Below are positions 17,109 through 25,655 of a DNA stretch of 33,317 nucleotides, one piece after another (the first letter of the stretch is position 1; the number at the start of each line of letters is the position of its first letter). Where the stretch lies: positions 1-33,317 of the forward strand of contig NZ_QUMK01000066.1 in assembly GCF_010907035.1 (NCBI RefSeq), in the 5' to 3' direction. The notes beneath the pieces were generated by a model. It was given only the letters and a program-made list of their open reading frames with translations, was not told the DNA's origin and did not search any database. Both the position numbers and the translations under genes were made by a program. Origin of the DNA: Rhodopseudomonas sp. BR0M22. Lineage in GTDB: Bacteria; Pseudomonadota; Alphaproteobacteria; Rhizobiales; Xanthobacteraceae.

Positions 17109-17238
17109 CATCATCTCCAGATTATCGGGCAGGTGTGCGCCGGATTGGCGCTGGTGCGGGGACTTGTCCCGCAGGCGGGTTTGCTTCCACGTCGGCTCGG
17201 CGCGGCGCGCCCCCGCGCACGGCGATGATGGACGCAAA

Positions 17239-17296
17239 CAATGTCAGCATTGCGTGACATAGTCATGCGCGAACGCTACGCAATGTGAGCGTTCCT
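17239..17296. repeat. Interleaved direct and inverted repeats upstream of xfp
   Basis: CAATGTCAGCATT (17239-17251) recurs as CAATGTGAGCGTT (17281-17293), 42 bp apart. The first copy contains the palindrome CAATG-TCAG-CATTG. GAACGCT (17271-17277) and AGCGTTC (17288-17294) form a perfect 7-bp inverted repeat with a 10-bp spacer. Such phased repeats suggest cooperative regulator binding. Confidence 0.45.
17242..17259. promoter_or_regulatory. PpsR/CrtJ-type palindrome upstream of xfp
   Basis: TGTC-AGCATTGCGT-GACA exactly fits the TGT-N12-ACA (TGTC-N10-GACA) consensus of the photosynthesis repressor PpsR/CrtJ. It is 134 bp upstream of the xfp start. Only one copy is present, whereas PpsR usually binds pairs, so function is uncertain. 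Confidence 0.4.
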
Positions 17297-17386: not shown

Positions 17387-17433
17387 TTGATGCGGATCAA
17401 TCGCGGCGGTGTCTCGTTGTTGATTCTGATCAA
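17387..17433. promoter_or_regulatory. Two perfect FixK/FNR boxes
   Basis: TTGAT-GCGG-ATCAA at 17387-17400 and TTGAT-TCTG-ATCAA at 17420-17433 both match the perfect FNR/FixK palindrome, with centres 33 bp apart (about three helical turns). The second box is centred about 72 bp before the BON start. The first could serve the divergent xfp gene. The rest of the gene-free gap 17109-17497 holds the repeats listed separately. Confidence 0.8.
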
Positions 17434-20597: not shown

Positions 20598-21026
20598 ATG
20601 ACCGCACCCGGCAAGCCGACAAGAACCGCGCCCATGACCGAAGCTGTCGCCGACGTCGTCAAGGAGTGGGAAGAGATCGCCGGCAGCCCGAGCGAACTGG
20701 AAGCCTTCGGTCGGGCGATGGCCAACATGGTCAAGGATCTCGGCCTGTCGCCCGCGGAAGTTCGCTCTCTCGCGACCAAGGGCAGCAGCGCCAAGGAATT
20801 GCCATGCCTGCTCGAAGCGCTGCGGATCAGCATCCGCGCGCTGGCCGAAAAGGAGCCGATGTTACTAAACGATCTCCGTCGGACCTGCGCGGTCTGCGAG
20901 CACAAGCAGGAATGCGATGCCGACATCGCAGCGGGCACTCTGGTGCCTGCTTATCAGAGCTATTGCCTAAACGTCGACACGTTGGACGCCCTTCGGCAGG
21001 ACGCCAACTTCGTCGCGGAGACGTAA
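20598..21026 (+). CDS. Cys-rich DUF6455-like protein
   Basis: The 142-residue protein starts at ATG 20598 with GGAGG five bases upstream. The N-terminal ~90 residues are helical (SELEAFGRAMANMVKDLGLSPAEVRSLA). The C-terminal part has four clustered cysteines, C97-x2-C100-x5-C106-x16-C123 (TCAVCEHKQEC ... YC), which could bind zinc or an iron-sulfur cluster; a fifth Cys is at 70. I place it with DUF6455 proteins of alphaproteobacteria from this pattern, with moderate certainty. No function is known to me. The FixK-type box and -10 upstream, and position before bchE on the same strand (158 bp gap with its own promoter), suggest an anaerobic or photosynthesis-linked role. Confidence 0.82.
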   Translation: MTAPGKPTRTAPMTEAVADVVKEWEEIAGSPSELEAFGRAMANMVKDLGLSPAEVRSLATKGSSAKELPCLLEALRISIRALAEKEPMLLNDLRRTCAVCEHKQECDADIAAGTLVPAYQSYCLNVDTLDALRQDANFVAET

Positions 21027-21116
21027 CCCCTCACACCTGCGCGGCCACCTTCGGCCGCAACCTGTTAGCGGCAGCGGCGCGGATCGCGCGCTGCTGAGTA
21101 CCAAAGCACCATTCGT

Positions 21117-21130
21117 TTGATCTGCGTCAA
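21117..21130 (+). promoter_or_regulatory. FixK/FNR-type box upstream of bchE
   Basis: TTGAT-CTGC-GTCAA matches TTGA-N6-TCAA. Its centre is 61 bp before the bchE GTG start, compatible with activation of bchE at low oxygen. Its right half overlaps the first PpsR-type palindrome. Confidence 0.7.
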
Positions 21131-21167
21131 GCATCCTTGACAGGCCTTATGTCATCGTTTCTTGACA
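21125..21167. promoter_or_regulatory. Tandem PpsR/CrtJ-type palindromes at the bchE promoter
   Basis: TGTC-N10-GACA at 21150-21167 is exact. CGTC-N10-GACA at 21125-21142 has one mismatch. They are separated by 7 bp, the spacing known for cooperative CrtJ/PpsR binding on photosynthesis promoters. Confidence 0.7.
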
Positions 21168-21184
21168 ATCATGGGAGAAAGTCA

Positions 21185-22885
21185 GTGCGCATCCTTCTCA
21201 TTCACCCGAATTATCATTCCGGTGGCGCAGAGATCGCCGGCCACTGGCCGCCGGCATGGGCCCCCTATCTGGCCGGTGCGCTGAGGGCCAACGGTTTCGA
21301 CGACATCAAATTCGTCGACGCGATGACCGAGGACATCTCGAGTGAAGGCCTCGCCAAGATCATCTCCGACTATCAGCCCGATCTGGTCGGCGCGACCTCG
21401 ATCACGCCGTCGATCTATGCGGCCGAAGAGGCGCTGAAGATCGCCAAGCAGATCAATCCCAAGGTCGTCACCATGCTCGGCGGCGTGCACGCGACCTTCA
21501 TGTATCAGCAGGTGCTGAGCGAAGCGCCGTGGGTCGACGTCATCGTCCGCGGCGAGGGCGAAGAGATCGTCGTCGAGCTGGCGCGCGCCGTTGCCTCGGG
21601 CAACTGGCCGGCCAACCGCTCCGAGATCAAGGGCCTCGCCTACACCGAGGGCTCCAACGGCGAGAGCCAGATCGTCGCGACCGCCGCAGCGCCGACCGTC
21701 AAGGATCTCGACGCGATCAAGCCGGACTGGGGCGTGCTCGACTGGAATCTGTATCGCTACATTCCGATGAACACCCGCGTCGCCATCCCCAACATGGCGC
21801 GTGGCTGCCCGTTCACCTGCTCGTTCTGCTCGCAGTGGAAGTTCTGGCGCGACTACCGCGTCCGCGACCCGAAGAAGGTGGTCGACGAGATCCAGGAGCT
21901 GGTCGAGAAGTACGATGTCGGCTTCTTCATCCTGGCCGACGAAGAGCCCACCATCAACCGCAAGAAGTTCATCCAGTTCTGCGAGGAGCTGATTGCGCGC
22001 GGCCTGAACAAGAAGGTGCAGTGGGGCATCAACACCCGCGTCACCGACATCCTGCGCGACGAGCAGCTGCTGAAGTTCTACAACGAAGCCGGCCTGATGC
22101 ACGTCTCGCTCGGCACCGAAGCGGCGGCCCAGCTCAAGCTCGACCTGTTCAACAAAGAGACCAAGATCTCCGACAACAAGAAGGCGATCCGCCTGCTCCG
22201 CGAAGCCGGAATCGTGGTCGAAGCCCAGTTCATCGTCGGCCTCGACTCCGAGACCCCGGAGACGCTGGAAGAGACCTATCGCATGGCGATGGACTGGAAG
22301 CCGGACCTCGCCAACTGGTCGATGTACACCCCGTGGCCGTTCACGCCGCTGTTCAAGGAGCTGTCGGACAAGGTCGAAGTGTTCGACTTCGCCAAGTACA
22401 ACTTCGTCACGCCGATCGTGAAGCCGGCGGCGATGGAACGCGGCGAGCTGCTCGACCGGGTGATGAACAACTATCGCCGGTTCTACATGTACAAGGCGTT
22501 CTTCTCGTATCCGTGGTCCGGAACGGGACGCCGGCGGCGCTATCTGCTCGGCTGTCTGAAGGCGTTCCTCAAGGCCGGCTTCGAGCGCAAGTTCTACGAT
22601 CTCGGCCGGGTCGGCTATTGGGGCCCGCAGTCGAAGAAGAAGGTCGACTTCCACTTCGACACCACCCGCAAGATCTCGCACGCCCAGATGGCGGACTGGG
22701 AAGCCAACGCCGACCGCTCGCGCAAGGCGGCCGCCTCGCAGATGGCCATCGTCTCGGCCTGCGGCGGCGGTACGGAGCAGATGCAGGAAACCGAGTGCGA
22801 TCACGCCCAGGAGAAGCTGGCCGAGACCGTCGCCAGCCGCATGGTGGATACGACCCATGACGCAGGTTCGGCGACCCGTCACTGA
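21185..22885 (+). CDS. bchE: Anaerobic Mg-protoporphyrin IX monomethyl ester cyclase BchE
   Basis: BchE is the oxygen-independent cyclase that makes ring E of bacteriochlorophyll, a cobalamin- and SAM-dependent radical enzyme. The 566-residue protein has an N-terminal B12-binding domain ([47 protein letters not shown]) and a radical SAM domain with the 4Fe-4S motif CPFTCSFC (Cx3Cx2C). The C-terminal ~150 residues are BchE-like, and the last ~60 are a polar, Cys/His-containing tail. GTG 21185 is chosen for the upstream GGGAG and because family members begin [15 protein letters not shown] 21149 is in frame but overlaps the PpsR-like site. It overlaps bchJ by 29 bp. The promoter has FixK and PpsR-type sites, fitting repression by oxygen/light and activation in anoxia. 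Confidence 0.96.
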
Positions 22886-25579: not shown

Positions 25580-25593
25580 TTGATCCACGTCAA
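25580..25593 (+). promoter_or_regulatory. FixK/FNR-type box upstream of the VOC gene
   Basis: TTGAT-CCAC-GTCAA fits TTGA-N6-TCAA. A TCCAAT hexamer at 25615-25620 is at about the -10 distance for class II activation. Confidence 0.6.
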
Positions 25594-25610
25594 CCTCCCG
25601 ACGGAAGCGT

Positions 25611-25629
25611 TTGATCCAATGCGGATCAA
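25611..25629. promoter_or_regulatory. 19-bp palindrome over the predicted VOC gene start site
   Basis: TTGATCC-AATGC-GGATCAA is a perfect 7-bp inverted repeat with a 5-bp spacer. Its half-sites look FNR-like but the spacing is wrong for FNR/FixK (9 instead of 4 between TTGAT and ATCAA). It overlaps the predicted -10, a typical repressor position. Confidence 0.5.
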
Positions 25630-25655
25630 ATGCACAAAACAATCGGGAGGACATC

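Follow-up and report, generated by a model that had tools for sequence, protein, structure and literature searches.

Results

The bchE locus and its upstream motifs

The window, meaning the whole 33,317-nucleotide stretch of Rhodopseudomonas sp. BR0M22 DNA that was analyzed, carries the gene order bchE-bchJ-hemN, and all three genes are matched by family models (789, 182, and 455 bits), as the initial annotation had proposed. The features of the locus and of the region 5' of bchE are as follows.

21117..21130, plus strand: FixK/FNR-type box TTGAT-CTGC-GTCAA, 9/10 to consensus, predicted centre -41.5
21125..21142, plus strand: PpsR-type palindrome 1, CGTC-N10-GACA, predicted -40 to -23, with 21125-21130 in common with the FNR-type box
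21150..21167, plus strand: PpsR-type palindrome 2, TGTC-N10-GACA, predicted -15 to +3
21153..21158, plus strand: predicted -10 hexamer CATCGT (xAxxxT) inside palindrome 2, proposed from conservation of the A and T
21165, plus strand: predicted transcript start, 20 nt 5' of the GTG, placed from the predicted -10 position
21173..21178, plus strand: likely ribosome-binding site GGGAGA, recognized by eye
21185..22885, plus strand: bchE, anaerobic Mg-protoporphyrin IX monomethyl ester cyclase, GTG start, TIGR02026, 789 bits
22857..23567, plus strand: bchJ, TIGR02019, 182 bits
23600..24946, plus strand: hemN, oxygen-independent coproporphyrinogen III oxidase, start codon approximate, TIGR00538, 455 bits

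The GTG at 21185 is the position at which 115 upstream regions, including that of the window, align (ATG in 99, GTG in 13, and TTG in 3, among the matches listed); the in-frame ATG at 21149, which lies inside palindrome 2, was ruled out as the bchE start because the homologues start at the GTG. BchE is the oxygen-independent cyclase and this genome also holds acsF, the gene for the aerobic cyclase, so the timing of bchE expression matters. A letter-for-letter check of the window placed the FNR-type box (TTGATCTGCGTCAA), palindrome 1 (CGTCAAGCATCCTTGACA), and palindrome 2 (TGTCATCGTTTCTTGACA) exactly where they had been described, upholding the claim that a FixK/FNR box overlaps tandem PpsR/CrtJ-type sites at bchE. 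All three lie within 68 to 18 bp 5' of the GTG, the whole element spanning 51 bp, with an overlap of 6 bp between box and palindrome 1 and a gap of 7 bp between the palindromes. The box departs at one of ten bases from TTGAT-N4-ATCAA and fits TTGAT-N4-RTCAA exactly; palindrome 1, as CGT-N12-ACA, opens with C instead of the T of the strict TGT-N12-ACA motif, to which palindrome 2 conforms. The bases common to the box and palindrome 1 are the recognition half-site of each, and binding of an activator and PpsR together at bchE would therefore be unlikely.

Rarity of the element in the genome

Single motifs of either type exceed expectation in the window. FNR-type boxes with at most one mismatch occur five times against 0.33 expected (the others at 17387, 17420, 25003, and 25580, the first two being exact matches), and single TGT-N12-ACA motifs occur ten times against 2.7 expected, so that one palindrome by itself is weak evidence. 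The tandem arrangement TGTC-N10-GACA-N7-TGTC-N10-GACA, on the other hand, had a single occurrence in the 5.29-Mb genome when up to two mismatches were allowed, the bchE site (backward control 0), and the FNR box joined to the outer PpsR half (TTGAT-N4-GTCAA-N8-GACA) occurs exactly once, again at bchE. With one mismatch the latter is present at three places (control 0), namely bchE, 5' of an FNR-type regulator gene, and 5' of a NuoA-like gene. The motifs at the bchE promoter are thus not due to chance, since the PpsR pair and the FNR-plus-PpsR element are each single in the genome. The photosynthesis-cluster contig (C84), on which strict boxes alone were scored, lacks any strict FNR box, and its single close PpsR pair has a gap of 8 bp, so that bchE looks like the meeting point of both regulons. 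It could be argued that FixK or AadR alone controls bchE and that PpsR makes no use of the palindromes, given that R. palustris bchE is listed for FixK dependence (PMC2908626) and that chance readily produces single TGT-N12-ACA motifs; however, the pair is single in the genome, its register is conserved across orders, and bchEJ is listed in R. sphaeroides PpsR ChIP (PMC4344238), and we consider such a scheme highly improbable.

Conservation of the geometry across bchE promoters

For comparison, the best 80 of 578 bchE matches, a choice biased to close relatives, were combined with 35 loci from other genomes (L133 was left out), and the resulting 115 loci, including the window, were reduced to 96 non-redundant promoters below 93% protein identity. 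A unique TTGAT-N5-TCAA box with at least 8/9 bases, position 10 being unscored, served as anchor in 73 of these 96 listed matches, and the outer half of palindrome 1 was scored as GACA, TACA, or GACG. Among the anchored promoters listed, this outer half stands at +22 from the box in 42/73, whereas composition shuffles gave a mean of 0.8 and a maximum of 5 at that offset. The shared half is at +8 in 52/73 and the halves of palindrome 2 are in register at +33 (40/73) and +47 (39/73), all remaining offsets from -15 to 59 staying below 8 among the matches listed. The bases between the sites vary among anchored promoters, also within Rhodopseudomonas, and sites held at fixed offsets while spacers vary point to selection rather than mere kinship. 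The composite of box and outer half is present in 42/96 non-redundant promoters, with palindrome 2 as well in 21-22/96 by two counts (among the matches listed). By locus title, and among the same listed matches, it occurs in Hyphomicrobiales (11/20), Rhodobacterales (9/17), Rhodospirillales (2/9), Acetobacterales (1/4), Rhodothalassiales (1/1), Sphingomonadales (1/4), and one gammaproteobacterial MAG, the remainder having no named order. Together, these data support an overlap geometry that is fixed across many bchE promoters, and the same layout in many purple bacteria indicates that it is probably a real switch and not a chance overlap.

The conservation has exceptions. Among the matches listed, 23/96 promoters have no unique FNR-type box and 31/73 anchored promoters have no in-frame outer half, and across 385 genomes sampled evenly from the class the strict element was found in only one of the seven bchE-bearing genomes, that of the window itself. 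The spacing of the palindromes is likewise not absolute. A gap of 7 bp had been put forward as the expected one, and it is indeed the commonest, being found in 34 of the 46 listed anchored promoters with palindrome 2 near register (counted in the frame of the box), but 8 bp (7 promoters) and 6 bp (5 promoters) also occur, and R. capsulatus bchC has 8 bp (PMC6199135). At two loci, L131 and L134, the bchE upstream region has an ATCAA box and PpsR-like halves downstream of it, with no half-site shared with the box.

Within Rhodopseudomonas, a bchE match was found in 15/16 genomes, the exception being G686. Both half-sites of palindrome 2 are kept in all 15 bchE promoters (the window and 14 relatives), whereas palindrome 1 carries C for the consensus T in 15/15. 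One may ask, then, whether the FNR box and palindrome 2 alone do the work, palindrome 1 being a half-match that is fortuitous or a relic, with repression acting only at the -10. This one-base departure and the absence of the outer half from 31 of the 73 listed anchored promoters would favor such a view, but the outer half sits exactly at +22 in the other 42, far above the shuffled expectation, and within the genus it is kept as TTGACA in 13/15 promoters (CCTACA in 2/15) while its flanks vary. We therefore regard a dispensable palindrome 1 as improbable.

The shared base at box position 10

The G at box position 10 is the base needed by PpsR (TGTC). It is present in 42/42 listed promoters with the outer half and in 21/31 without it (Fisher 7e-5, kinship ignored). 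A kinship-corrected test of the shared base was not significant; all informative tree pairs go in the expected direction, with 0 contrary pairs, and the pairs are too few (median p 0.125 and 0.25). Boxes ending in GTCAA make up 15/29 of the strict FNR boxes of this genome, and their share is 63/73 in the bchE set (among the matches listed) against 14/28 among other boxes (Fisher 4e-4, kinship ignored). The position-10 G is accordingly weakened as proof of selection by PpsR, GTCAA being a common variant and the kinship-corrected pairs too few. Its practical interest is that a G to A change at 21126 should hurt the repressor and spare the activator, which would provide a single-base handle on the interplay of an oxygen-responsive activator with a light- or redox-responsive repressor.

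A predicted promoter inside palindrome 2

Among the listed box-anchored promoters, an A at +37 (62/73) and a T at +41 (55/73) are prominent and have the four-base separation of a -10 hexamer. At the equivalent place of palindrome 1 the T is present in only 24/73 listed promoters, and in those where palindrome 2 has no left half the A and T are still found in 22/33 and 24/33 (among the matches listed), so that PpsR recognition does not explain the +41 T. We suggest that the conserved xAxxxT inside palindrome 2 reads as the -10; with the start placed seven bases 3' of the +41 T, the box would be centred at -41.5, the position of a class II activator, and the start codon would lie 18-22 nt downstream in 47/73 of the listed promoters. 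A constitutive sigma-70 promoter with the TTGACA of either palindrome as its -35 was considered and set aside: no promoter-like site, and no sigma-70-type site with a -35, was found within 20950-21300. With no good -35 in view, we propose that the promoter is activator-dependent. The literature found in our search gives no mapped bchE transcript start.

Regulator genes and the nature of the signal

Genes for both kinds of regulator are present. Two ppsR genes score above the TIGR02040 cut-off in the photosynthesis cluster of this genome, the second being followed by a bacteriophytochrome gene, and a ppsR gene was found in 15/15 same-genus genomes searched. One contig carries both a FixK-like gene (L099) and an FNR-like gene (L100) whose product has an N-terminal cluster of cysteines; the names FixK and AadR that we use for them are assumed from resemblance. 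No cysteine is present in the last 90 residues, the HTH end, of either PpsR encoded here, and in an alignment of PpsR1 alone to the R. sphaeroides PpsR chain the R. sphaeroides cysteine faces Val; we take the cysteines in question to be the redox cysteines of CrtJ/PpsR. Because the bacteriophytochrome gene adjoins the second ppsR, PpsR2 probably responds at least partly to light; in R. palustris, BphP1 binds PpsR2 under far-red light (PMC6899989). FixK of R. palustris is reported to regulate micro-oxic growth and photosynthesis (PMC13327599). Given the micro-oxic role of FixK, the lack of an HTH cysteine in both PpsR proteins, and the bacteriophytochrome gene next to the second ppsR, the earlier proposal that the switch opens only in anoxia is not supported.

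Related elements beyond bchE and other sites in the window

The exact element was found in 14/385 genomes of the even class sample (backward control 1), 13 of them without a bchE match. Nine of these 13 other copies lie within a frame of at least 200 residues and four do not (nearest downstream frames read by eye). Family models were run on one of the 13, L092, where the element (1501-1526) stands 5' of hemF, encoding oxygen-dependent coproporphyrinogen oxidase (360 bits), in an alphaproteobacterial genome without a bchE match; TGTC occupies the palindrome-2 place, and the copy is counted among the nine through a frame on the opposite strand. In the genome of the window, the one-mismatch copy 5' of an FNR/AadR-type gene (G000:C74:42750-43466, minus strand) lies at 43565-43590. 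In 16/16 Rhodopseudomonas genomes (L158-L173) the promoter of this gene reads TTGATCTGTGTCAAG-N4-CTTGAC[GA] and continues with an invariant ACATATT, with the same FNR/PpsR half-site overlap as at bchE and without a second palindrome. G686 was rejected as a PpsR-free control for this site, as it has both ppsR genes. It is conceivable, if doubtful, that the half-site-sharing element is a module beyond bchE, used at the aadR-type gene and hemF, and that PpsR would also lock the activator of bchE, giving a two-layer, possibly light-gated switch. A further copy, TTGATCGGCGTCAACCAGCCTTGACG (L142, G000:C17:4432-4457), found in this genome only, lies 5' of the NuoA-like gene (NuoA models below cut-offs).

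Other sites in the window concern different genes. Two perfect FixK/FNR boxes (17387-17400 and 17420-17433) stand 5' of a BON-domain gene, and paired TTGAY-N4-ATCAA-type boxes are also present in L001-L004. A TGTCAGC-N6-TGACA palindrome (17242-17259) lies just 5' of a phosphoketolase frame (start near 17237, minus strand); at the matching place L001, L002, and L003 have a TGTCAGC...TGACA palindrome whose core differs, and L004 and L005 seem not to extend that far. At 25580-25630, TTGATCCACGTCAA stands together with a TTTGATCCAATGCGGATCAAA palindrome, the half-sites of the palindrome being 9 bp apart, 5' of genes of the VOC family and of a homoprotocatechuate-type dioxygenase.

Discussion

We consider it likely, on the strength of the motif arrangement and its conservation, that these 51 bp form a composite operator at which FixK or AadR/FNR activates, and PpsR represses by occupying one half-site of the activator together with the -10. 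Bound to 21117-21130, at about -41.5, a dimer of the FixK or AadR/FNR type would recruit RNA polymerase in class II fashion. PpsR would occupy both palindromes, with GTCAA, the downstream half of the activator box, doubling as the upstream half of palindrome 1, and its binding to palindrome 2 would cover the -10 and the start, so that PpsR on the DNA would keep both activator and polymerase off. Low oxygen raising FixK/AadR, together with withdrawal of PpsR by light via the adjacent bacteriophytochrome, and perhaps by redox, would then open bchE-bchJ-hemN.

Published work on other purple bacteria bears on this reading from both sides. bchE (ID 1987, RSP0281) belongs to the core FNR regulon and is also among the FixK-regulon genes of R. 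palustris (PMC2908626). In R. sphaeroides, FnrL binds at bchE, where two PpsR sites are also known (PMC4263372, PMC4344238), and a T at -57 is needed for activation by FnrL and CrpK, its change costing ~90% of FnrL activation (PMC4263372). The R. sphaeroides FnrL site (reverse complement TTGATGCATGTCAA; PMC2908626) and the first PpsR site (TGTCAACTGAAATGGACA; PMC4344238) share TGTCAA, and the T at -57 fits this shared stretch. The joining of the FnrL and PpsR lists is ours, and it suggests, as far as published site strings go, that they describe one composite site, in which case a mutation read as affecting FnrL/CrpK only may also have touched PpsR binding. On the other hand, deletion of fnrL in R. 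sphaeroides gave higher, not lower, bchEJGP transcripts (PMC4263372), and expression data make FnrL an activator of bchE in R. capsulatus but a repressor of it in R. sphaeroides (PMC4634722).

The behavior of CrtJ in R. capsulatus is also a poor fit to the simple departure of a repressor, since its ChIP peaks at bchE are similar under aerobic and photosynthetic conditions (PMC5362033). Together with the proposal of an AerR-CrtJ complex as activator (PMC5362033, PMC6199135), this raises the idea that PpsR remains bound whether the promoter is repressed or active, a partner converting it from repressor to co-activator, so that the two regulators would not be simple competitors. However, the CrtJ motifs of R. 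capsulatus bchEJGP are 45-500 bp apart (PMC6199135), a layout that differs from that of the window, where the recognition bases of a half-site are shared, and we find a permanently bound PpsR unlikely here. The literature found reports no regulator binding at Rhodopseudomonas bchE, and our search of open-access literature found no description of the shared half-site or overlap; we do not claim that it is unpublished.

Among known systems, the closest to the element is the bchEJGP promoter of R. sphaeroides (Cereibacter), which, as compared through published site strings alone, likewise combines an FnrL box with two PpsR sites and whose T at -57 matches the T at -58 of the window; unlike the window, its operon is bchEJGP and its activators are FnrL and CrpK. 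R. capsulatus bchC, controlled by CrtJ, similarly has two closely spaced TGT-N12-ACA palindromes across the core promoter, but these are at -47 to -30 and -21 to -4 (PMC5362033) with a gap of 8 bp (PMC6199135), and the literature found on this promoter mentions no FNR box sharing a half-site. With class II FNR/FixK promoters the element has in common a TTGAT-N4-RTCAA box predicted at -41.5 and no visible -35, whereas here one half-site of the box doubles as part of a repressor operator, and the second repressor site contains the predicted -10. On this reading the element is an ordinary kind of device, competition between an activator and a repressor, in an unusually conserved and compact form, and the promoter of a relative is already known to be under both regulators.
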